DNA of 64,000 nucleotides, taken from Rhizobium bangladeshense. Lineage in GTDB: Bacteria; Pseudomonadota; Alphaproteobacteria; Rhizobiales; Rhizobiaceae. The stretch spans positions 2,545,001-2,609,000 of the forward strand of contig NZ_CP071612.1 in NCBI RefSeq assembly GCF_017357245.1, in the 5' to 3' direction. Positions 3,627 through 38,555 of the stretch are shown here, piece after piece (position 1 is the first letter of the stretch; each line of letters begins with the position of its first letter). A program made the position numbers and the translations under genes. Below the pieces are notes generated by a model. That model saw nothing but the letters and a program-made list of their open reading frames with translations, was not told where the DNA came from and made no database searches.

Positions 3627-4462
3627 GCCAGCACCTGGCCGGACTGGCGGAATGGATCGGGTTGCAGGCGCCGCCCGGCGAGAGCGCCGAGCCAGTCAAG
3701 TGAGGCTCGGAGCCGCACCACCTCGCCGACGACGACCACCGCCGGCGGCTCGAGCCCGGAGGCGGTGACAGCCTCGGTCGCCTGCCCAAGCGTCGTCTCC
3801 AGCACCTGCTGCGCCCCGGTCGCCGCATTGCAGACAAAAGCCACGGGCTCGGACGGCGAGCGGCCCGACGCAATGAGGTTGGCGCTGATCTGGGCGATAT
3901 GCTTCATCGCCATGTACATGACGATCACGGGCGACCCCTTGCCGATCGCTTCCCAGTCTATTCGATCAGGTACGATACCGGAGGAATCATGGCCGGTGAG
4001 AAACGTCACCGTATGATTGACCTCGCGATGCGTCACCGGAATGCCGGCATAGGCAAGCCCGCCGATACCGGCGGTGATGCCGGGCACGATGCGGAACGGT
4101 ATATTATGCTCGACCAGCATCAGCGCCTCTTCGCCGCCGCGGCCGAAGACGAAGGGATCGCCACCCTTCAACCGCAGCACCCGCTTGCCGGCACGCGCCA
4201 ACTCCACCAGCCGCAGCGAAATATCGCGCTGTTTCGCCGAGGGCTTGCCGCCGCGTTTGCCGGCATATTCGAGTTCGGCGCCGGGGTGCGCGAGCCTAAG
4301 ACAGTCCTCATTGACCAGCGCGTCATGGACGATCACATCGGCCTCGGCGAGCCCCTTGGCGGCCAGGAGCGTCAGCAGGCCCGGATCACCCGGACCGGCC
4401 CCGACGAGCCAGACGCTGCCCGGCTCCAAGGCCGGCAAATGGGAGAATGTGCTATTAAACAT
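3623..4462 (-). CDS. cobA: Uroporphyrinogen-III C-methyltransferase CobA
   Basis: A 279-residue SAM-dependent methyltransferase that converts uroporphyrinogen III to precorrin-2, the entry step into corrin synthesis. The SAM-binding loop VGAGPGDPGLL is at residues 20-30, and the family signatures RLKGGDPFVFGRGGEE and GITAGIGGLAYAGIPVTHR are present. It has no CysG-type dehydrogenase/chelatase domain. First gene of the cobA-cobB-cobC-cobD operon. The 332-base leader contains no B12 box that I can recognise, so control by the riboswitch found at cobP does not obviously extend here. Confidence 0.95.
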   Translation of the reverse strand: MFNSTFSHLPALEPGSVWLVGAGPGDPGLLTLLAAKGLAEADVIVHDALVNEDCLRLAHPGAELEYAGKRGGKPSAKQRDISLRLVELARAGKRVLRLKGGDPFVFGRGGEEALMLVEHNIPFRIVPGITAGIGGLAYAGIPVTHREVNHTVTFLTGHDSSGIVPDRIDWEAIGKGSPVIVMYMAMKHIAQISANLIASGRSPSEPVAFVCNAATGAQQVLETTLGQATEAVTASGLEPPAVVVVGEVVRLRASLDWLGALAGRRLQPDPFRQSGQVLA

Positions 4463-4794
4463 TTTGTTGATCTAGGCCCAGCAAGGACCAAGGTCAACGC
4501 CGCCTGCAGCACCTCACTTGAAGTTGCTGAGATGAGGATGAATCAATTTGTAAACAAGCGGATTCGAGATCGCAGCAAAGCGCCGCAACAACATGAATGT
4601 ATTATGACATCGTCCAAACGAGACCGCCTACAGCACGGAGTGCTAACAGAGTCGTCCAACTCCCCCTCGTGATGCTCGGGCTTGTCCCGAGCATCTGCGG
4701 CGGCCGCACCGAAATCTAGGCGCAAGACCGAGTGTGACGCCACGAAAAAAGCAAGCCGAAAGTTGACGCCTGCTGCAATCAGCCTGCGAGACAC
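4463..4794. other. Intergenic region between cobA and nucleoside hydrolase
   Basis: This 332-base stretch should hold the cobA promoter (minus strand) and the 3' end of the nucleoside hydrolase transcript. The one clear structure is a hairpin at 4671-4695. No B12 box and no convincing small ORF were seen. Confidence 0.5.
4671..4695 (-). terminator. Perfect hairpin downstream of nucleoside hydrolase
   Basis: GATGCTCGGG, five loop bases (CTTGT), then CCCGAGCATC: a perfect 10-bp inverted repeat about 100 bases beyond the hydrolase stop codon. There is no clear T-run, so it may be a repeated palindrome or RNA-stabilising hairpin rather than an intrinsic terminator. Confidence 0.5.
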
Positions 4795-5745
4795 TCAGCC
4801 GCGAAGCAGCGTACCGCGGATCAGGTTGAGGACCTTTTCCGACTCGATGCCGGTGGTGACGATATGGCTCGGCAGGCCATCCCAATCGCCCGGCGGGAAC
4901 CGGCGACCGTCCGGCTTGACGATCGTCTGGCCATCGGCAATGCCGCCGCAGACGACACGCACCGCACCCGATATGGACGAGAACAGCTCCGGCGCCACAA
5001 CGTAGACTGCGGCGCAGCTGTCATGCACCATCATGCCGTCCTCGACCGCATGCTTGTAAAAGTCGATGTAGGACTGGGAGAGTGCATCGAGCAGTTTCAC
5101 GGCACCATCTCCCTCGGTCGCCATCCTGCCGAGATAACTGCGGCTCATGGTGGTGATCGAGGTGACGTCGAGGCCGATGACGGCCACCTTCCAAGGCGCG
5201 GTCATGACGATGTCGGCGGCTTCGGGATCCCCGTGAATATTGGCCTCGGCGACCGGCGAGACATTGCCGGGTACATAGAAATTGCCACCCATGATGACGA
5301 CGTCCTTGACCAGGGTCGCAATCTCTGGATCCACCTTCAACGCCATCGCCAGATTAGTCATCCGCCCCACCGCGACCAGGCGCACCTCGCCTGGATGGGC
5401 GCGCACGGTGTCGATGATAAAGCGGTGCGCCGGGCGCGGATCTAGCGGCAAGTCGATCGTCTTTGGTACCTCGATATCGCCGAGGCCGTTGTCGCCATGC
5501 ACCATGGAAGGCCATTCCCGCTCGGCGCGCGTGGCGTCGATGGTGACGCCGGCGCCTTTGGCGACGGGCGCCGGAATGTTCCATTCGCGTTTGAGGAAGA
5601 GTGCATTGCGCGTCGTCGTCTCGACCGATGCATTGCCGAAGACTGTGGTGATGCCGATCAGATCGATTTCGGGGTGGCGATGCAGGAAGAGAAGCGCCAT
5701 GGCGTCGTCAACGCCCGGGTCAGTGTCATAAATGACCTTGTGCAT
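4795..5745 (-). CDS. Inosine/uridine-preferring nucleoside hydrolase (IunH family)
   Basis: A 316-residue nucleoside hydrolase that cleaves the N-glycosidic bond of ribonucleosides. The calcium-binding Asp cluster DTDPGVDD is at residues 7-14, and the catalytic-region histidine motif MVHDSCAAVYVV is near residues 240-250, both intact. Length is normal. It begins 69 bases downstream of the cobE stop on the same strand, so it may share the cobE transcript. A link to cobalamin, for example salvage of a lower-ligand base, is possible but is inference from position only. Confidence 0.9.
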   Translation of the reverse strand: MHKVIYDTDPGVDDAMALLFLHRHPEIDLIGITTVFGNASVETTTRNALFLKREWNIPAPVAKGAGVTIDATRAEREWPSMVHGDNGLGDIEVPKTIDLPLDPRPAHRFIIDTVRAHPGEVRLVAVGRMTNLAMALKVDPEIATLVKDVVIMGGNFYVPGNVSPVAEANIHGDPEAADIVMTAPWKVAVIGLDVTSITTMSRSYLGRMATEGDGAVKLLDALSQSYIDFYKHAVEDGMMVHDSCAAVYVVAPELFSSISGAVRVVCGGIADGQTIVKPDGRRFPPGDWDGLPSHIVTTGIESEKVLNLIRGTLLRG

Positions 5746-23872: not shown

Positions 23873-24481
23873 TCAGACCCCACGGATCAGCTTGAAGGCT
23901 ATAATCCACATCGTCGCAGCGACGAGCGTTTCAAGCATCCGCCAGGACGAGGGCTTGGAGAAGATCGGCCGCAGCGATGTTGCGCCATATCCAAGCGAAA
24001 AGAAGAACAGGAAGGAGCCCGTCACCGCGCCTAAGGCAAAGGAAGCCTGCTCCCCAGGATAGCGCGTCGAGATCGTACCTAGCAGCACCACTGTGTCGAG
24101 ATACACATGCGGATTGAGCCAGGTGAGCGCGAGGCAAGTCACAAGCGTCCGGGAAAAGCTTGCCGTTTCAGCCGCCGCCACTGTGAGCGCAGCGGATGAC
24201 CGCAAGGCGGAATAGAGGCTCTTGGCTCCGTACCATGCCAGAAACGTCGCTCCCCCATAGCGCATGACCGGATCGAGCCAAGGTAGCAGTCCGGCGATCC
24301 GCTGCAGGCTGGTCACGCCGAGCACGATCAATGCGGCGTCGGACAGGGCGCATGCCAGGCAGACGGCGAAGACATGTTCATTGCGCAACCCCTGGCGAAG
24401 GATGAAGGCGTTCTGAGCGCCGATCGCGACTATAAGGCTGAGCCCCATCATCAGACCAGTGGCATAAACAGAGAAATTCAT
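23873..24481 (-). CDS. LysE/ArgO-family amino acid exporter
   Basis: A 202-residue membrane protein with about six hydrophobic segments and the LysE signature LIVAIGAQNAFILRQGL near residues 15-31. LysE/ArgO proteins export basic amino acids such as lysine, arginine or canavanine. I use the ATG at 24481; the upstream TTG adds four residues. It is divergent from an ArgP/LysG-type regulator, the standard genetic arrangement for this exporter. Confidence 0.9.
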   Translation of the reverse strand: MNFSVYATGLMMGLSLIVAIGAQNAFILRQGLRNEHVFAVCLACALSDAALIVLGVTSLQRIAGLLPWLDPVMRYGGATFLAWYGAKSLYSALRSSAALTVAAAETASFSRTLVTCLALTWLNPHVYLDTVVLLGTISTRYPGEQASFALGAVTGSFLFFFSLGYGATSLRPIFSKPSSWRMLETLVAATMWIIAFKLIRGV

Positions 24482-24534
24482 CGTCTTCGGCAACCACTCT
24501 CAAGCTCGATGAAGTTGCGGTATCGCCTGAAATT

Positions 24535-24553
24535 GGATTAGTCTAATTAATCC
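24535..24553. promoter_or_regulatory. Putative ArgP/LysG operator
   Basis: GGATTA, seven bases, TAATCC: a perfect inverted repeat between the divergent lysE-like and argP-like genes, with spacing that suits a LysR dimer. Confidence 0.6.
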
Positions 24554-24582
24554 GCCTTATCTTGATTAAGCGAAACTAACTC

Positions 24583-25476
24583 ATGCTTGACTATCCCGCC
24601 CTGCGCGCCGTCGCAACCGTGGTCCAAACCGGCAGCTTCGAGAGGGCGGCGACCCTGTTGAACGTGACGCCTTCGGCGGTCTCGCAGCGTGTGAAGCAAC
24701 TCGAGGAACGCCTCGGGGTCATTCTGATCGCCAGAGGCACCCCCTGTACGGCGACCGAAAAAGGAGAATGGCTCTGTCGTCACATCGAGAATGTCGGCAT
24801 GCTGGAAGCCGAGCTTTTCGCGCAGTTGCCGGCTCTTGTCGATCCAGACGAGCCACGCCAAAGAGTGACACTTCAGATCGCGACCAATGCCGACAGCCTC
24901 GGCACATGGTTCGTGGAGGCCATGTCGAATTTCTCCAAGACCTCGTCCTATCTATTGAATGTCGCTGTCGACGACCAGGATCACACCGCCGAATGGCTGC
25001 AGCGAGGACGCGTGATCGCAGCCGTCACCAGCCTGGAGAAGCCGATCCGAGGATGCCGGCGTTTCGCCCTTGGAACTCTGCGTTACAACGCCACCGCAAC
25101 ACCTGATTTTGTCGCACGCCACTTTCCAGACGGCGTGACGTCGGAGGCGATCCGCAACGCTCCCGCCCTGACCTTCAACCAGAAGGACAGGCTTCAGAGC
25201 AGCTGGGTAAGGCAAACCTTCGGCCAGGATTTGGACTACCCCACACACTGGCTACCCTCGCCGCAAAGCTTCGTCGAGGCCACCCTTTCAGGTATGGGAT
25301 GGGGAATGAACCCGACCCAGCTCACCCGCGATCACCTCGCATCGGGACGGCTGGTCGAGCTAGTCGCAGACACGCCGCTTGACGTCCCGCTCTACTGGCA
25401 GATAAACCGCCTCGCCGCCGATCGCCTGGCGGAGTTGACACGTGAAGTCGTCGCCGTGGCTAAGCGCCGTCTTTGA
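24583..25476 (+). CDS. ArgP/LysG-family LysR regulator
   Basis: A 297-residue LysR regulator. The N-terminal helix-turn-helix (FERAATLLNVTPSAVSQRVK at about residues 18-37) and the continuation QLEERLGVILIARGTPCTAT follow the ArgP/IciA/LysG pattern. ArgP proteins sense lysine or arginine and switch on the divergent exporter. The position opposite the LysE gene supports this. It converges with the GreA-like gene downstream. Confidence 0.9.
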   Translation: MLDYPALRAVATVVQTGSFERAATLLNVTPSAVSQRVKQLEERLGVILIARGTPCTATEKGEWLCRHIENVGMLEAELFAQLPALVDPDEPRQRVTLQIATNADSLGTWFVEAMSNFSKTSSYLLNVAVDDQDHTAEWLQRGRVIAAVTSLEKPIRGCRRFALGTLRYNATATPDFVARHFPDGVTSEAIRNAPALTFNQKDRLQSSWVRQTFGQDLDYPTHWLPSPQSFVEATLSGMGWGMNPTQLTRDHLASGRLVELVADTPLDVPLYWQINRLAADRLAELTREVVAVAKRRL

Positions 25477-27833: not shown

Positions 27834-28877
27834 CTATGGGCCGTCGACATTCGGCTTAAGAGCGGCTTGGTGCGGCCTGTTTCCTTCCTCTCCCGGCGGC
27901 CATAGAACAGCCGACAGGAGCAGCGCGTAGATCAAGGCTGCCGCGACATAGGCAATCCTGCTCGCGAAGGATTCCGCGGCACTGCCCGGGAGCGGAGAGA
28001 CACCAAGACCGAACAGAATAAGGAATATGGTTAGGACACCCGCGAACACGCGAGCGTCCTTCGAGCGAGCGGCAGCGCGCCCTCCAATGAGCAGGGCGAC
28101 GACCAGCAGGATGAGGAAAATCGAGAGAAGGCTTGGGCGCAGCAATAGCGCTGCATAGGCAACGGAGGCCAGCACGCCGCCGCAGAAATTGACGAACACC
28201 AATCCAATCGCCGCCCGCGCGCTTGCGGCAACGTCCAACTGCCCGAGCAGCGACGCCACGGTTATGGGAATGACTACCGCGGCGCTCAGATTGTCGCTCG
28301 TCAGACACATGACGACGGACGTCAGAAGGATGAAAGCATTTGCCAGAGCCCGAAGTAAGGCCGGCGGCCGTTCTTCAACTGCGACCGCTTCGCTCCTCGG
28401 AGAGACCGGTTCGGGAAAGATCGCATGGGCGAGCCACATGAGAGCCGCGCCCGACACAACCGCCGCAACCAGGATCGACAGGATAGAACTCGCGAGTTCC
28501 TTGTTCAGGATGCCGAGGAGGGGCACGATGATCGACACGACGAGCACGAGGAAAACAGCTGGCCCTCCCCGTCCCGCCGACTGTAGCGCGAAACACGCAA
28601 AATAAGTGAGCCCAAGGATCAGCAGGAAAGGCATCGGACGTTCGCCGAGCAGGTCGGTCAACGCCATCATCGCTATACCGGCAAAGAGAATGACCAGCGC
28701 TGCGCCGATGGTCTTGCCAGGTGGCATGGGCCGCGAACTTCCAAGGAGAAACTGAGCAGCAAAGAGCGGACCGAGGAAGGGCAGGACAGCACCGGCATGG
28801 ACTGCCAAGGTGAAGCCGACTGAGACTGCGAAGGCGACCCGCAGCCCTTTGCGTTTCTGCTCTCCGTCAGCTGACAT
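27834..28877 (-). CDS. DUF2955 (FUSC-like) inner-membrane protein
   Basis: A 347-residue integral membrane protein with two blocks of about five hydrophobic helices, one from residue 15 to 165 and one from residue 185 to 335. This matches the DUF2955/FUSC-like fold that pairs with HlyD-type periplasmic adaptors in aromatic-acid or drug efflux. It overlaps the HlyD-like gene upstream by 11 bases, so the two are co-translated and probably form one exporter. Substrate unknown. Confidence 0.82.
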   Translation of the reverse strand: MSADGEQKRKGLRVAFAVSVGFTLAVHAGAVLPFLGPLFAAQFLLGSSRPMPPGKTIGAALVILFAGIAMMALTDLLGERPMPFLLILGLTYFACFALQSAGRGGPAVFLVLVVSIIVPLLGILNKELASSILSILVAAVVSGAALMWLAHAIFPEPVSPRSEAVAVEERPPALLRALANAFILLTSVVMCLTSDNLSAAVVIPITVASLLGQLDVAASARAAIGLVFVNFCGGVLASVAYAALLLRPSLLSIFLILLVVALLIGGRAAARSKDARVFAGVLTIFLILFGLGVSPLPGSAAESFASRIAYVAAALIYALLLSAVLWPPGEEGNRPHQAALKPNVDGP

Positions 28878-29973
28878 AGGTCAGCACCGACATGAGACGG
28901 ATCCACAGCGATCCCCAGGCATTGGTGACCGGGTTGTCGCCCGTGTAGATGACGACGATCGCCTGAGAGCCGTAGCGTACCCCGCCCTTCGGCCGCTGCC
29001 CCTCCTCGAAGTTCAGCCGGACAGGAAACCGCTGCGGCTCCTGGACCCAGCCGCTGTCGTTGCGGATCGTGGGCAATCCGGTACTCGGGTCGGTGCTGCC
29101 TTGCGATACCCCGAACCCGACGCTCTCGACCGTTGCCGGGAATAACCGGCCGGGAAGTGCGTCGAAGAGGATGTCCGCTCTGTTGCCGACGGCGACCTTC
29201 TCCAGGCTGTTTTCCTTGAATGCCGCATTGATCCAGATGGTGCCGGCATCGATGAAGGTCATTGCCGGCTGGCCCACCGAGACGACCTTGCCGATGGTGA
29301 GCTGAAGATTGGTGACAACACCGGCTGACGGTGCCCGGACGGTCGTCCGCACCAGATCGAGCCGGGCCTTTTCCAATCCGGCAAGGGCTGCACGCAGTTG
29401 TGGATTGTCGTTACCGGACGGGCCGAGTTGCTCCTTGGCCTTGACAAGGTCGGCTTGCGCCCCCGACACCGAAGCCTCGGCCTGATCATAAGCGGACTTG
29501 GCCGCATCGAACCGGGCCTTGGAAAAAACCCCGCGCTTCACCAACTCGGTCGCCCGGGCATACTGATCGCGCAGATTGTCTCGGTCCGCCTCGATCTGAA
29601 CGAGCTTGGCCTGTGCCGCATCGACGGCCGCGGTCGACGCCCCGATCGATTGGCCGACGCTTGCAAGCGCTGCTTCGGCTTCGCTGACGGCGAGCTCGTA
29701 ACGTTCGGGATCGATCCTAAAGAGAACCTGATCGGGCTCGACGCGCGAATTGTCGGCGACCCCGACTTCCACGACTCGACCGGTGACCTCGGGTGCGATG
29801 CCAACGATGTAGGCATGGACCTGCGCTTGCGACGTCGACGGTGTACGCCGCTCCATGAAAATGGAGAGGACGAACAGAGCCATCGCCAGCAGTACGACCG
29901 CGAGAGCTATGCTGCGCAATGGATTCCGGGGTGTTGAGGAGATGACAGGCTCATCCATATTTTCGGAAACCAC
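28867..29973 (-). CDS. HlyD-family membrane fusion protein
   Basis: A 368-residue periplasmic adaptor of the EmrA/HlyD type: one N-terminal membrane anchor (about residues 20-40), a biotinyl-lipoyl-like half (AYIVGIAPEVTGRVVEVGV), a long alpha-hairpin with heptad character (about 85-200) and the second lipoyl half (TTVRAPSAGVVTNLQLTIGK). The GTG at 29973 is preferred because AAGGA lies 7 bases upstream. The adaptor precedes its DUF2955 partner. A 19-bp palindrome at 30062-30080, about 90 bases upstream, is a likely operator. Confidence 0.9.
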   Translation of the reverse strand: MVSENMDEPVISSTPRNPLRSIALAVVLLAMALFVLSIFMERRTPSTSQAQVHAYIVGIAPEVTGRVVEVGVADNSRVEPDQVLFRIDPERYELAVSEAEAALASVGQSIGASTAAVDAAQAKLVQIEADRDNLRDQYARATELVKRGVFSKARFDAAKSAYDQAEASVSGAQADLVKAKEQLGPSGNDNPQLRAALAGLEKARLDLVRTTVRAPSAGVVTNLQLTIGKVVSVGQPAMTFIDAGTIWINAAFKENSLEKVAVGNRADILFDALPGRLFPATVESVGFGVSQGSTDPSTGLPTIRNDSGWVQEPQRFPVRLNFEEGQRPKGGVRYGSQAIVVIYTGDNPVTNAWGSLWIRLMSVLTYVS

Positions 29974-30061
29974 GGCAAGATCCTTCGAAAGCGTTGGTGA
30001 AGCATGATTTTAAGCGCCAGCTGTCTGTCGCGATGGTCGTGACCGAACGGGTGGGGCGCAA

Positions 30062-30080
30062 GTAAGTAACCGTAACATAC
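30062..30080. promoter_or_regulatory. Palindromic operator-like site upstream of hlyD-like gene
   Basis: On the minus strand GTATGTTACGGTTACTTAC, which matches the site at 30463-30481 in 17 of 19 positions. Confidence 0.6.
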
Positions 30081-30117
30081 GCCTGCCCATGACTGGCCTT
30101 CGGATCGACCGCATAGA

Positions 30118-30378
30118 TCAGCGGGCGGGTGGCGGCGTCGAAGCGATGTCGAGCGCGCCCTCTATCTCCTTGAGAAGCTCTGCGATCAGTTCTCGGTACT
30201 CGGCAATGCGCTCGACACGCTTCGGATCGGCTGAGACGCTCCATTTTTCCACCGCCAGTCCGGCGTCGGCAAAGTCCCTGCAGATTTCCCGAAAGTCCTC
30301 ACTGCGGGCGGCAAGAACATCGATCGCCTTGGCCCTGGCCGGAAAATGCCGACGGACCGCTGCCACGCCTTCGTCCAT
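30118..30378 (-). CDS. Hypothetical small helical protein
   Basis: An 86-residue, probably all-helical soluble protein of unknown function (RVERIAEYRELIAELLKEIE near the C terminus). The ATG at 30378 has a CAGGAG ribosome site 6-7 bases upstream, and the longer frame upstream is rejected because it reads through the operator region. It lies between the hlyD-like gene and the divergent regulator, with an operator palindrome on each side. Confidence 0.65.
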   Translation of the reverse strand: MDEGVAAVRRHFPARAKAIDVLAARSEDFREICRDFADAGLAVEKWSVSADPKRVERIAEYRELIAELLKEIEGALDIASTPPPAR

Positions 30379-30462
30379 GGTTCGCTCCTGACCGAATATG
30401 TGACGCCGCCACTGCAGCGTGTGCCGGCTCCCGATCTTCATGGACGACGACCGGTTCGAGGA

Positions 30463-30481
30463 GTATGTTACTGTTACATAC
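30463..30481. promoter_or_regulatory. Palindromic operator-like site at the regulator promoter
   Basis: GTATGTTACTGTTACATAC, an almost perfect dyad (8 of 9 pairs), midway between the divergent small gene (start 30378) and the regulator (start 30524). A near-identical copy is at 30062-30080. Confidence 0.65.
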
Positions 30482-30523
30482 AGTCTGGCAGTGATGTGAC
30501 TCAACGGGGGATTGGGGACAGAC

Positions 30524-32344
30524 ATGCTGACGTCTATGCCGCCAGAAGGGTCTGCGGCGCCCTTTCCTTCAGAGTCGGGGCCTCAAGCGCACGACATCAC
30601 GAGACAACTGGAGCGCGTTATATCCAGTCCTGAATTTCCTGGCGTTGGCCGCGCCGCAGCTTTTCTCCGCTATGTCGTCTCTGAGACCCTCGCCGGTCGA
30701 GGCAACCGGATCAAAGCCTATTCCATTGCGATCGAAGTATTCGGCCGGGATACCGGCTTCACCCAGGACGATCCAGTTGTCAGGATCGAGGCAGGACGCC
30801 TGCGACGATCGCTCGAGCGCTATTATCTGGTTGCCGGCCAGCATGATCCAATACGGATTGATATTCCGAAGGGCGGTTATGTCCCCACCTTCACCTGGTC
30901 CTGCCCAGCCTCTGCCGACACGCGCAACGAAGATGTGGAAGCGCTGCCCTCTCCGGCCCGCCCCGGACGCTGGGAGCGGGCGAGACAAGTTTTGTTGCTA
31001 GGCGCTATTGCCGTCACCATGCTTGCTCTTTCACTCTATTGGCTGGCAGCATTGCCTACAGCCTCTTCGCTCCAAAGGGCTGCAAGTCCATCGCCCGATC
31101 GTCCGGCCCTGGTGGTGGCTCCCTTTGCCAATCTTGGCGAAGGGCCTGAGGCGCAGCTCTACAGTGCCGGCCTGACAGAAGAACTGATGACCGTCCTCCC
31201 GCGGTTCAAGGAGATCAAAGTCTTCGGCCGCGAGACCTCCCGATCTCTTCCGGCGGATGTGCGGGCATCGGAAATCCGGGCGGAATTCGGCGCGCGCTAT
31301 CTGCTGACCGGCGGTGTACGAACTTCGGGCCAGCGTCTTCGCGTAACCGCCAGGCTGCTCGACACCTCGGACGGCGAAATCCTCTGGTCGGAGAACTACG
31401 ACAAGGATCTCGCGTCGGGAGACCTCTTTGCGATCCAGACGGACGTTGCCAGAAAGGTCGCGACCGCCATCGCCCAGCCGTATGGGGTGATGGCACAGGT
31501 TGACGCCGCCAGTCCGCCCCCGGACGACCTCGGTGCGTATGAGTGCACGCTGCGCTTCTACGCCTACCGTTCGGAACTGAGCGCCGAAGCGCATTCGCGA
31601 GTGCGCAGTTGCCTTGAGAGCGCGATAGCTCGATTTCCGAACTATGCGACCGCCTGGGCGATGCTATCGATCGTCTACCTCGACGAGGACAGGTACAGGT
31701 TCAATTCGACGCGAAACAAGGAGGCAACCATAGAGCATGCGCTCGGTGCTGCCAGGCGAGCGACACAGCTCGATCCGAGCAATACGAGAGGCCTTCAGGC
31801 GCTGATGACGACGCTGTTCTTCGACAGGCAGCTCCCCGAGTCCTTGCGCGTGGGAGAACAGGCCCTGGCCACGAACCCCAACGACACCGAACTGATGGGC
31901 GAGTTCGGAACGCGGCTGGCAATGGGTGGCCAATGGCGGCGCGGAGCAGCTCTCCTTGATGAGGCCATCGCGCTCAATCCCGGCGGCGGCGGCTTCTACC
32001 ATGGGACACGCGCACTGGCGGCTTACATGCTCCACGACAATCACACTGCCCTGCTGCAGATCAGACAGGCGAACATGCAGAAGTTCCCGCTCTTCCATGT
32101 CGTGGCTGCCATCATCTATGCCGAGGCCGGCATGATGGAGGACGCGCGGCGGGAGGGGGAGGTTTTCGTCGCCATGCGGCCTGACTTCCTGCCGAACATT
32201 GCAACGGAACTTGCAATACGCAACATTCAGCCTGACGATCGGGACCGTCTGATCCGCGGTCTTCGCAAGGCAGGACTGACGGTCCCCGATCCTGACAAAT
32301 TGGCGTCATCCGTCACCGGCATCTCCGAACTGCAGCCCCGCTGA
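30524..32344 (+). CDS. Membrane-bound winged-helix / TPR regulator ('adenylate cyclase'-like annotation)
   Basis: About 606 residues from the ATG at 30524, preceded by GGGGAC. Residues about 20-110 form a predicted winged-helix DNA-binding domain found in many rhizobial proteins (RIKAYSIAIEVFGRDTGFTQ, then DDPVVRIEAGRLRRSLERYY). One membrane segment follows (about 150-172). A TolB-N-like domain (LVVAPFANLGEGPEAQLYS) and C-terminal TPR-like repeats complete it. No cyclase catalytic motifs are present, although relatives are often annotated as cyclases. The layout is CadC-like: a membrane sensor that binds DNA directly. It is the natural candidate to bind the nearby palindromes. Confidence 0.82.
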   Translation: MLTSMPPEGSAAPFPSESGPQAHDITRQLERVISSPEFPGVGRAAAFLRYVVSETLAGRGNRIKAYSIAIEVFGRDTGFTQDDPVVRIEAGRLRRSLERYYLVAGQHDPIRIDIPKGGYVPTFTWSCPASADTRNEDVEALPSPARPGRWERARQVLLLGAIAVTMLALSLYWLAALPTASSLQRAASPSPDRPALVVAPFANLGEGPEAQLYSAGLTEELMTVLPRFKEIKVFGRETSRSLPADVRASEIRAEFGARYLLTGGVRTSGQRLRVTARLLDTSDGEILWSENYDKDLASGDLFAIQTDVARKVATAIAQPYGVMAQVDAASPPPDDLGAYECTLRFYAYRSELSAEAHSRVRSCLESAIARFPNYATAWAMLSIVYLDEDRYRFNSTRNKEATIEHALGAARRATQLDPSNTRGLQALMTTLFFDRQLPESLRVGEQALATNPNDTELMGEFGTRLAMGGQWRRGAALLDEAIALNPGGGGFYHGTRALAAYMLHDNHTALLQIRQANMQKFPLFHVVAAIIYAEAGMMEDARREGEVFVAMRPDFLPNIATELAIRNIQPDDRDRLIRGLRKAGLTVPDPDKLASSVTGISELQPR

Positions 32345-32567
32345 TACTGTCTCCTCGCCGTAACATACCAGATCATACGGGTAAGCCATCTCATCTTCGC
32401 ATAGTCTGACCTACAAGCCGCAGTGATCGCCGCGGCTCATTTGGGCGACCTGCAGGGCTTTGGGACAAGCTCTTAACCGGCACAGGCAAGTGGCGGCGGC
32501 ACGTGACGCGGCGAGCCTGATCCTTTCCGCCAACGGTTCGGGGAGGTTCGCCAAATCGGGATGGACA

Positions 32568-34724
32568 ATGGTTGTGCTGTCTAGGATCCGCACGATAGTG
32601 CCTTTTTCCGCGGGGGCCGCCCTGGCCTCCCTTCTTCTCTGCGCCTCGATTGCCATGGCGCAAAGCCCGACGCCTGTGGACCCGCAGCCTGAAAGCGTCC
32701 AGCGCTTCATCGCAATGTTCTCGGATCCTGACGTCCAGCGCTTCCTGCAGCAGCAGTCGCAGGCCGCCAGGCATGTGCCGGAACCACCCCTGGAAGTGCC
32801 GAACCGCGACCCCTCTTTTTCCGAATTCACGATGCGGTTCCGCGCCCACGCTTCCGCCCTTCTCGGCGCGGTGAATTCCTTTCCCCTGGAGACGACCCGA
32901 GCCTGGGCCATCGTCGAAGCGGACATTCGGGCAAACGGCGGGACGCGGCCGATTCTCCTGATCGCCGCCTTCGTCGCCGCTGGGCTGGCCGCTCAATGGC
33001 TGTTCTGGTGGGTCAGCGTCGGCTGGCGCAGATGGATGTCGCGCGCGTCCTACCGGACCATATCGGGAAGAGTTGTCGCATTGGCGGCAAGATTTCTGTG
33101 GGCGGGATGTTACGTCCTTTCCTTCGGCCTCGGCAGCATCGGCTTTTTCCTGCTGTTCCAATGGCCGCCTGTCATCAGGGAGATCGTCGTCGGATACCTC
33201 TTGGCGACCGTCATCTTCCGTCTGGGGAGCGCCCTTTTCGAGGTTTTCCTGACACCGCGGGCCGAAGAAGAGGGCGGGTTTCGGGTCGTCCCGCTCGCTC
33301 GGGATGCCGCCTGCCACTGGGCGAAACGGCTGGCCTATCTCGTCGGCTGGTATGCCTTCGGATGGGTGACCATCCGCCTGCTCGACACGTTAGGCTTTTC
33401 CCTTCCGGCCCGGCAGCTGGCCGCCTATTGCCTCGGCCTCGTCCTTCTCTTGATCGTCATTGAAGCCGTATGGAGACGTCCGTCCCGATCGCCTTCCAGC
33501 CAAACCAGCCGAATCGGCGTGAGGGCCCGCAACTGGCTCTGGACGTCCTATTTCTTTGCCGCCTGGCTGCTATGGGTAGTCGGTGCCATGCGGCTGTTCT
33601 GGATAGCGGTGGTCGGTGCCGCCCTACCCGCCGCCATCGCCCTTACCAAGGCGTCGGTCGACAATATCTTGCGGTCTCCCGCAACCGAGGAGGATGGTCA
33701 TAAGCGAAGCACCGTCGTCTCCGTGGTCGTCGAACGCGGCATCAGAGCCGCACTGATCGTCGCAGCCATCGTCCTGCTTGCGCAGGCGCTGGACGTCCGG
33801 TTGACTGAGATGACGATGCAAGATTCTCCCCTTCTGCGACTCGTGCGTGGCCTCCTCAGCGCCGGGATCATTCTCATGATCGTCGACCTGGCTTGGAACC
33901 TCGTGGCAGTCCTGATCGATCGCAAGCTCGGCGACACCGAGGCGGTCCTCGAAGCCGGAAGCGATCGGGAGCGGCGGCGCTTGCGCATCAGGACCCTTCT
34001 GCCGATCCTTCGCAATTTCCTGATGATCCTCTTCGTCGCAATCGCGATCATGATGGCCTTGTCGTCCCTCGGTATCGAAATCGGCCCGTTGATCGCAGGT
34101 GCAGGAGTAGTTGGCGTCGCAATCGGCTTCGGGGCGCAGACCGTGGTCAAGGACGTCATTAGCGGAGTGTTCTACCTGCTCGATGATGCCTTCCGCGTGG
34201 GCGAATACATCCAGAGCGGCAGTTACAAGGGCACCGTCGAGTCGTTCAGTTTGCGATCCGTCAAGCTCAGGCACCACCGCGGAGCGGTCTTCATCGTCCC
34301 CTTTAGCGAGCTCGGAGCGATCCAGAACATGAGCCGCGATTGGGTGATCGAGAAGATGACGATCACTGTCACCTACGATTCCGATATCGAGAAGGCACGC
34401 AAGATAATCAAGAAGATAGGCCTGGAATTGTTCGAGGATCCGGAGTTCAAAGCAACGACCATCGAGCCCCTGAAAATGCAGGGGATTGATAGCCTCGGCG
34501 ACTCCGGTCTGCTCCTGCGAATGAAGGTCATGACCCTTCCAGGCCAGCAGTTCACGCTGAAGCGGCGGGCACTCCGAATGATCCATGAGGCGTTCCATGA
34601 AAACGGCATCAAGCTCGCCGTGCCGACTGTCCAGGTCTCCGGCGGAAACGGCGACGCCGTCGGCGCCGCCGCCCAGCAGACGATCGCGGCGCACAATGTA
34701 GCGATAGCCGCGGGTCCGGCCTGA
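32568..34724 (+). CDS. MscS-family mechanosensitive channel
   Basis: About 718 residues from the ATG at 32568, which opens a signal peptide (MVVLSRIRTIVPFSAGAALA, cleavage near AMAQ). A periplasmic region and about ten membrane helices precede the MscS pore and beta domain: VVGVAIGFGAQTVVKDVISG is the TM3/beta junction, followed by AFRVGEYIQSGSYKGTVESF. It therefore belongs to the large, multi-helix MscS branch that protects against hypo-osmotic shock. It is on the same strand as the regulator, 223 bases downstream, with an operator half-site in the gap. Confidence 0.9.
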   Translation: MVVLSRIRTIVPFSAGAALASLLLCASIAMAQSPTPVDPQPESVQRFIAMFSDPDVQRFLQQQSQAARHVPEPPLEVPNRDPSFSEFTMRFRAHASALLGAVNSFPLETTRAWAIVEADIRANGGTRPILLIAAFVAAGLAAQWLFWWVSVGWRRWMSRASYRTISGRVVALAARFLWAGCYVLSFGLGSIGFFLLFQWPPVIREIVVGYLLATVIFRLGSALFEVFLTPRAEEEGGFRVVPLARDAACHWAKRLAYLVGWYAFGWVTIRLLDTLGFSLPARQLAAYCLGLVLLLIVIEAVWRRPSRSPSSQTSRIGVRARNWLWTSYFFAAWLLWVVGAMRLFWIAVVGAALPAAIALTKASVDNILRSPATEEDGHKRSTVVSVVVERGIRAALIVAAIVLLAQALDVRLTEMTMQDSPLLRLVRGLLSAGIILMIVDLAWNLVAVLIDRKLGDTEAVLEAGSDRERRRLRIRTLLPILRNFLMILFVAIAIMMALSSLGIEIGPLIAGAGVVGVAIGFGAQTVVKDVISGVFYLLDDAFRVGEYIQSGSYKGTVESFSLRSVKLRHHRGAVFIVPFSELGAIQNMSRDWVIEKMTITVTYDSDIEKARKIIKKIGLELFEDPEFKATTIEPLKMQGIDSLGDSGLLLRMKVMTLPGQQFTLKRRALRMIHEAFHENGIKLAVPTVQVSGGNGDAVGAAAQQTIAAHNVAIAAGPA

Positions 34725-37523: not shown

Positions 37524-38555
37524 ATGGATTTCGCTATGAACAGGATGCAGATCAAGAAGCGCTCACTGGTCTTCTTTATGGTACCGCAATTCACCATGCT
37601 GCCCTTTTCGGCAGCGGTGGACACCTTGCGCATCGCCAACCGCATGCTCGGCTATCAGGCCTATACCTGGCGGCTCGCCTCGGTCGACGGAGAGAAGGTC
37701 TATTCCTCCTGCGGCATCGGCATCGAGGCGAACTCCTCGCTTGCCGAGGAGCGCCGCCATCTTGGCGGCGAAAACCGTCCCGGCATGGTGCTCGTCTGTT
37801 CCGGCATCGATATCGAGGAATTCAACAACAAATCCGTCAATGCCTGGCTGCGTGAATGCTACAATCGCGGCGTCGCCGTCGGCAGCCTCTGTACGGGCGC
37901 GCATGTGCTGGCACAGGCCGGCCTTCTGAACGGCAAGCGTTGCGCCATCCACTGGGAGAACCTGCCCGGCTTTTCCGAAGCCTTTCCGCAGGCGGAGGTC
38001 TATGCCGATCTCTACGAGGTCGACGGCAATCTCTATACCTGTGCCGGCGGCACCGCCTCGCTCGACATGATGCTGAACCTGATCGGCGAGGATTTCGGTG
38101 AAAGCCTCGTCAACCGCATCTGTGAACAGCACCTGACCGACCGCGTGCGCAACCCGCACGACCGCCAGCGCCTGCCGCTGCGCGCCCGCCTCGGCGTTCA
38201 GAACGCCAAGGTGCTGTCGATCATCGAGCTGATGGAAGGCAATCTCGCCGAGCCGCTGTCGCTGATCGAGATCGCCGATGGCGCCGGTCTCTCCCGCCGC
38301 CAGATCGAACGGCTGTTCCGCCAGGAGATGGGCCGTTCGCCGGCGCGCTACTATCTGGAAATTCGCCTTGACCGCGCGCGCCACCTGCTGGTGCAGTCCT
38401 CGATGCCCGTCGTCGAGGTCGCCGTCGCCTGCGGCTTCGTCTCGGCCTCGCATTTTTCCAAGTGTTATCGCGAACTCTACCACCGCTCGCCGCAGCAGGA
38501 ACGCGCCGAGCGCAAGTTGACGATGGCGACGTCAAGACAGGCGGTCGCGGCGTAG
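37524..38555 (+). CDS. glxA: GlxA/GbdR-type AraC regulator with DJ-1/PfpI domain
   Basis: A 343-residue regulator. Residues about 10-190 form a DJ-1/PfpI-like (class I amidotransferase) domain with the nucleophile-elbow sequence GSLCTGAHVLAQAG and the partner AIHWENLPGFSEAFP. Residues about 225-325 form an AraC double helix-turn-helix (LIEIADGAGLSRRQIERLFR; VVEVAVACGFVSASHFSKCY). Family members of this design respond to quaternary amines or related metabolites. I use the ATG at 37524, but those at 37536 and 37545 are also possible. The GlxA name reflects the rhizobial orthologue group and is moderately sure. Confidence 0.85.
   Translation: MDFAMNRMQIKKRSLVFFMVPQFTMLPFSAAVDTLRIANRMLGYQAYTWRLASVDGEKVYSSCGIGIEANSSLAEERRHLGGENRPGMVLVCSGIDIEEFNNKSVNAWLRECYNRGVAVGSLCTGAHVLAQAGLLNGKRCAIHWENLPGFSEAFPQAEVYADLYEVDGNLYTCAGGTASLDMMLNLIGEDFGESLVNRICEQHLTDRVRNPHDRQRLPLRARLGVQNAKVLSIIELMEGNLAEPLSLIEIADGAGLSRRQIERLFRQEMGRSPARYYLEIRLDRARHLLVQSSMPVVEVAVACGFVSASHFSKCYRELYHRSPQQERAERKLTMATSRQAVAA

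Follow-up and report, generated by a model that had tools for sequence, protein, structure and literature searches.

A conserved 19-bp inverted repeat as candidate operator of a membrane-tethered winged-helix/TPR regulator in Rhizobium bangladeshense

Which protein reads the 19-base sequence that occurs twice, in nearly identical form, beside an exporter gene pair and a regulator gene of Rhizobium bangladeshense? The DNA stretch analyzed here (the window) comprises 64,000 nucleotides of contig NZ_CP071612.1 (assembly GCF_017357245.1, positions 2,545,001 to 2,609,000 of the forward strand), and the two copies, O1 and O2, lie upstream of an exporter of the HlyD-DUF2955 kind and between a small gene and the gene of a winged-helix/TPR protein, respectively. 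An earlier note, made from the letters of the window, had suggested that the repeat could be the operator of this neighboring regulator, a proposal that is strongly supported by the comparisons described below, in which we searched both from the regulator to the site and from the site to the regulator. We propose, from sequence comparison, that the product of the regulator gene (30524-32344) in all likelihood binds to O1, O2 and probably also to O3, a weaker copy behind its gene. The principal features are as follows:

30062..30080, minus strand: O1, GTATGTTACGGTTACTTAC, upstream of the HlyD-DUF2955 exporter
30463..30481, plus strand: O2, GTATGTTACTGTTACATAC, between the small gene and the regulator gene, which diverge
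30524..32344, plus strand: regulator gene, 606 amino acids, with an N-terminal winged helix, one membrane helix and a TPR region
30779..30826, plus strand: recognition helix VRIEAGRLRRSLERYY, regulator residues 86-101
32360..32378, plus strand: O3, GTAACATACCAGATCATAC, weaker operator-like copy between the regulator and MscS-like genes

The sites and their association with the regulator gene

O1 and O2 both fit GTATGTTACNGTTACWTAC with 0 mismatches, at a spacing of 401 bases. The earlier note had described them as near-identical copies of a 19-bp palindrome; both copies are present at the positions it gave, while in the window they are imperfect inverted repeats. The counterpart of O2 in genome G194, GTATGTTACCGTAACATAC, is a perfect palindrome except at its center, and this genome keeps 18 of the 19 bases of O1 and 17 of the 19 of O2. 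A site at the O1 position was also seen in loci L088-L098, and a copy at the O3 position in all 11 named loci checked (one being G194 again); O3 itself differs from the general pattern GTANNNTACNGTANNNTAC by 2 mismatches. That two such long dyads would hardly arise by chance, as the note had argued, is borne out by dinucleotide shuffles of the window, 0 of 100 of which contained matches at ≤3 mismatches. The genome-wide motif scan that it had suggested added no further copy: across all 6.35 Mb of the genome, only O1 and O2 come within 3 mismatches of the W-degenerate form GTAWGTWACNGTWACWTAC, which when reversed gives 9 matches per strand in the same genome.

Regulator homologues were found at E ≤ 1e-60 in 39 of 247 genomes of the window's family, and 8 of the 247 contain the W-degenerate motif at ≤1 mismatch (13 places, 9 of them on homologue-bearing contigs). 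A wider pattern, GTANNNTACNGTANNNTAC, was derived by reading 30 loci around homologues, and 19 of these, the window among them, contain it at ≤1 mismatch, where Markov shuffles expect 0.0. Since the pattern had been generalized on these loci, a second set of 75 further homologue loci (the best 80 named loci minus 5 duplicates) was examined with the pattern fixed; these include Phyllobacterium, Mesorhizobium, Methylocella, Bosea, Microvirga and Kaistia records and are not independent of one another, about ten coming from the R. leguminosarum group. The fixed pattern lies within 3 kb of the regulator homologue in 56 of the 75, the reversed pattern in 1, and this recurrence beside further relatives makes it very probable, in our view, that the regulator itself binds the repeat. 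By its DNA-binding domain the regulator is closest, among named relatives, to Rhizobium proteins, and one protein of the window's genome matches this domain at E ≤ 1e-4.

When the motif was searched first, 32 of the 39 regulator-bearing genomes yielded 27 exact GTANNNTACNGTANNNTAC sites, 16 of them within 7 kb of a homologue; five of the other 11 are of the GTACCGTAC type, and six were examined by neighborhood. Thirty-two hand-chosen genomes without a homologue at E ≤ 1e-60 yielded 8 exact sites, 6 of the GTACCGTAC type and 2 of the GTAATGTAC type. The GTACCGTAC-type palindrome is recurrent (e.g., G067:C13:356460 and G046:C1:2664175), in genomes with and without the regulator.

Several observations weigh against the assignment. 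The site is missing from 19 of the 75 named loci, 8 of which have a recognition helix identical to that of the window, and the G057 regulator is 63% identical, yet no site was found in the surrounding 19 kb. Beyond the window's family the site was found at 1 of 22 loci, and 35 genomes outside the family, 19 of them with a homologue, gave 0 exact GTANNNTACNGTANNNTAC matches; some named loci of Bosea, Microvirga, Methylocella and Kaistia, genera of other families, carry the site at ≤1 mismatch. In three genomes a site was found but no regulator was detected. Two of them (G020 and G158) carry one site each, near the W-degenerate form; the sites of the third (G088), at 1 and 2 mismatches from that form, adjoin homologues of the small gene, DUF900 and DUF2092, and neither a regulator homologue nor a homologue of its DNA-binding domain was detected there. 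In G088 either another regulator took over or the small protein is weightier than assumed. Its locus L204 (G088:C1:89000-98000) has operator-like sites at about 4437-4853, before the small gene and before the DUF2092 gene.

The regulator, its recognition helix and the small gene

For residues 1-127 of the regulator the structure model is a winged helix (predicted local distance difference test score, pLDDT, 89.8) with the fold of the OmpR C-terminal domain. Foldseek gave no match for this N-terminal domain at E ≤ 0.001, and its first 14 VIA-align rows are OmpR/PhoB-type domains, SaeR, YycF, PhoB and KdpE being the best. The Pfam model Trans_reg_C (PF00486) has no match in the window regulator and one among 32 homologues (best E 0.081); at E ≤ 0.001 Pfam gives TPR models only, and no catalytic domain of a class III adenylate cyclase, an annotation that the note had called usual for this family. 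A membrane helix at about residues 156-177 was read by eye as the basic stretch RWERARQ followed by VLLLGAIAVTMLALSLYWLAAL. The HilA/EilA model matches 16 of the 32 homologues at E ≤ 0.01, the window's included, and the CadC model 4 of the 32; the window's HilA/EilA match is a weak one in the TPR region, with 16.3 bits (E 0.0024) where the cut-off stands at 589. The regulator would be a one-component, membrane-tethered transcription factor resembling CadC and HilA, whose cytoplasmic winged helix of the OmpR/PhoB fold would read the 19-bp inverted repeat (family form GTATGTTACnGTAACATAC), and whose TPR region, presumably periplasmic beyond the single membrane helix, would sense an envelope signal.

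Residue 91 of the window's regulator, a Gly in the recognition helix, marks a position that covaries with operator type. When 129 loci were grouped by this residue, a GTA-type site was counted within 1.5 kb in 71/107 Gly, 0/10 Arg, 1/7 Ala, 1/3 Ser, 0/1 Val and 1/1 unassigned loci. A different palindrome, GAACRYGTTC, occurs in 8 of 10 loci of the Arg class versus 5 of 107 of the Gly class, a grouping that is post hoc, because this pattern had first been spotted by eye; 8 of the 22 other-family loci contain it, where shuffles of those 22 expect 0.23 loci. The loci concerned (L181, L184-L189 and L195) come from other families of the order and form a sister subfamily with the helix EARRLRRDL, in which GAACRYGTTC palindromes such as GTACGAACATGTTCGTAC lie about 160-290 bases before the regulator match. 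Homologues with the helix EAARLRR (L061, L065, L147 and L178-L180) mostly have no GTA-type site, and may use a third operator type. Among 93 distinct 19-mers, presumed operators, the central triplets match in inverted orientation at 115 of 279 positions and in direct orientation at 64 of 279; shuffles give 99.6 inverted matches on average, and 30 of 2000 reach the observed count.

The genes that accompany the regulator in the window are:

27834..28877, minus strand: DUF2955 gene (PF11168, E 2.3e-8), presumed inner-membrane partner of the HlyD adaptor
28867..29973, minus strand: HlyD-type periplasmic adaptor gene (HlyD_D23, PF16576, E 2.3e-18)
30118..30378, minus strand: small gene, 86 amino acids, divergent from the regulator gene, with no Pfam family for the open reading frame (ORF)
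32460..34724, plus strand: MscS-like mechanosensitive channel gene behind O3, start codon uncertain

The adaptor gene and then the DUF2955 gene adjoin on one strand, which is the arrangement of an HlyD-DUF2955 exporter; the adaptor also matches the MdtN, EmrA and AaeA models, with scores below their cut-offs. ATG 30378 is the most likely start of the small gene, which extends to 30118, since an AGGAG box precedes this codon and the alignment with the closest homologues begins at it. Of 36 neighborhoods from the window's family, 22 contain a homologue, and the alignment of these 22 sequences has F12, F29, C33, R57, E60, L68 and E71 invariant; at the named loci a homologue is present in 44 of 75, in 43 of them divergent and upstream. 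The protein is modeled as four helices (pLDDT 94.4), for which no PDB match was found at E ≤ 0.001. Often divergent beside the same operator, this small helical protein is probably a co-regulator, feedback or signaling partner.

Two further loci of the window may be recorded. At 23873-25476 a LysE/ArgO-type exporter-like ORF (by eye) stands with a divergent LysR-type regulator, with no operator copy there, and at 37524-38555 an AraC-type regulator carries a DJ-1/PfpI domain.

Direction of control and competing explanations

The putative promoter elements around the two sites are:

30441..30446, plus strand: TGGACG, putative -35 of the regulator promoter, spaced 17 bp from the -10
30464..30469, plus strand: TATGTT within O2, putative -10 of the regulator promoter
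30499..30504, minus strand: putative -35 TTGAGT of the small-gene promoter, kept in G194, 18 bp before TATGTA
30475..30480, minus strand: TATGTA within O2 (TATGTT in G194), putative but weak -10 of the small-gene promoter
30056..30061, minus strand: TTGCGC abutting O1, possible exporter -35 (TTGCGT in the G194 orthologue)

TGGACG recurs at equal spacing before the sites of Rhizobium and Phyllobacterium homologues, and a -35 match of 4/6 is present at 15 of 28 distinct autoregulatory sites (at least 4 is reached by 6.7% of background positions). A protein bound at O2 would cover the -10, and autorepression is therefore the simple reading; we consider it rather probable that the regulator at O2 blocks its own promoter, with the small gene under the same control. 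At the exporter a sigma-70 scan for a promoter found nothing, and the -10 candidate behind TTGCGC, GACCAT, is weak. TTGCGC or TTGCGT follows immediately on the site at the exporter, both in the window and in G194, and at the DUF1254 gene of genome G128, a geometry that would fit an activator; it is quite possible that the regulator at O1, next to this possible -35, activates the HlyD-DUF2955 exporter.

Autorepression is ranked ahead of exporter activation, and pure repression is kept as a serious rival. The regulator might bind its sites as a plain repressor everywhere, the exporter included, until an envelope signal relieves the repression; this is compatible with the proposed binding and competes on the direction of control only. 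The position of the -10 inside O2 would fit, as would a possible exporter -10, TATGTT, within O1, which is kept in G194, but the -35 match 16-19 bp before that TATGTT is 2/6 in the window and 3/6 in G194, the commonest background values. Since the exporter and DUF1254 sites end directly before TTGCGC or TTGCGT, and the nearest known kinds of regulator, CadC and HilA, act as activators, we regard repression at every site as somewhat doubtful.

It is very unlikely that the palindrome is bound by some other regulator, such as a TetR-type protein with its gene elsewhere, the winged-helix protein being a mere bystander or a further target. Inverted repeats of 19 bp are typical of TetR operators, three genomes have the site without a detected winged-helix regulator, and in G128 (150 of 179 TetR candidates scored) the unlinked C65 site has one TetR match at a distance of 15.7 kb and the C75 site another at 72 kb. 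In the window's genome, however, where 150 of 197 candidates were scored, not one of the 37 TetR matches listed lies closer than 200 kb to O1 or O2, and the listings for G194 (150 of 183 scored) and G234 (144 of 144) show no TetR match on contigs C103 and C41, which carry the sites in these genomes; moreover, the site tracks the winged-helix gene, with whose recognition helix the operator type goes.

About equally unlikely is the explanation that the conserved GTANNNTAC is a mere promoter -10 region and no operator. It does contain TANNNT, and many distant loci show only one obvious 9-mer, correctly spaced from a possible -35, but the 19-bp double site is found in full behind the regulator gene too (+1650 to +1950 for 15 of 90 sites) and before unlinked genes, and the inverted symmetry given above is found at positions that the search had left free. 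Least probable of all is that the small helical protein is the DNA-binding or decisive factor and the regulator merely controls it: site and small-gene homologue lie within 3 kb at 41 of the 75 named loci, and the G088 sites adjoin the small gene with the regulator undetected, but 15 of the 75 loci have a site and no small-gene homologue within 3 kb, the four-helix model resembles no PDB entry at the threshold used, and the operator type changes with a residue of the winged helix.

Candidate target genes and relation to known systems

Four of the six unlinked sites examined by neighborhood precede or adjoin gene families seen with the regulator elsewhere, which, like the covariation with residue 91, supports the pairing of regulator and operator put forward in the earlier note. 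One site has a DUF1254/1214 gene (68% identical over 480 residues), two have DUF3300, which at one of them is accompanied by DUF2950, PPK2 and a sulphate permease, and the fourth has a Cys-rich/OmpA pair; at the remaining two, no more than a generic ABC-ATPase match turned up at one and nothing at the other. The Pfam labels near or behind sites are DUF1254/1214, DUF3300, DUF2950, DUF3302-HlyD-sulphate permease, PPK2, AI-2E transporter, DUF2092, DUF900, OmpA, Lnb_N, Bestrophin-like, MGH1-like glycoside hydrolase and HlyD-DUF2955, and several of the families adjoining sites in relatives are envelope or membrane proteins. Each such gene is a candidate regulon member by neighborhood, which does not prove control. 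According to a root-nodule genome survey (PMC4653623), the orphan genes DUF2950 and DUF3300 were induced in both RNA-seq studies that it used, and their gene neighborhood offered no other functional hints. We tentatively suggest a broader picture, in which the single residue Gly/Arg 91 goes with a switch between the GTATGTTACnGTAACATAC operator and the GAACRYGTTC operator, many regulators have a helical partner of about 85-110 amino acids with an invariant cysteine, and the regulon of the Gly class includes DUF3300, DUF1254/1214 and HlyD exporters.

Among the entries listed in literature searches, no characterized member of this regulator family appeared. Regulators of the CadC/ToxR kind consist of an OmpR-type winged helix, one membrane helix and a periplasmic sensor; the window's regulator would share this membrane-bound one-component layout, its helix being read by eye, but it is TPR-like behind the membrane helix, its DNA-binding domain goes unrecognized by Trans_reg_C, and its presumed operator looks like an inverted repeat, with one site covering the regulator's own putative -10. 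The HilA/EilA family, an OmpR-type winged helix plus TPR, has the same general architecture (half of the homologues compared match its model at E ≤ 0.01, the window's only weakly), and differs in operator, targets and the presence of a membrane helix (by eye). The OmpR/PhoB effector domains named above are the best fold matches, and the helix DPVVRIEAGRLRRSLE resembles an OmpR-type recognition helix; such domains bind tandem direct repeats, whereas the window's regulator has no receiver domain and would be membrane-tethered, and inverted rather than tandem repeats seem favored at its presumed operators. The exporter has its two-gene order in common with the AaeA, EmrA and MdtN systems, whose models its adaptor matches below cut-off, but its partner gene is DUF2955 and the neighboring regulator is a membrane-bound winged-helix protein, not of the LysR type as is AaeR.

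The regulator family thereby gains a candidate operator, candidate target genes and a correlation between recognition helix and operator. The comparison ties it to DUF3300, the neighbor of DUF2950, a pair reported as induced in the nodule survey (PMC4653623), and also to DUF1254/1214, DUF900, DUF2092 and the HlyD-DUF2955 exporter. If the broader picture is true, membrane-bound winged-helix/TPR regulators of Rhizobium and related bacteria would form a family with a readable DNA code.
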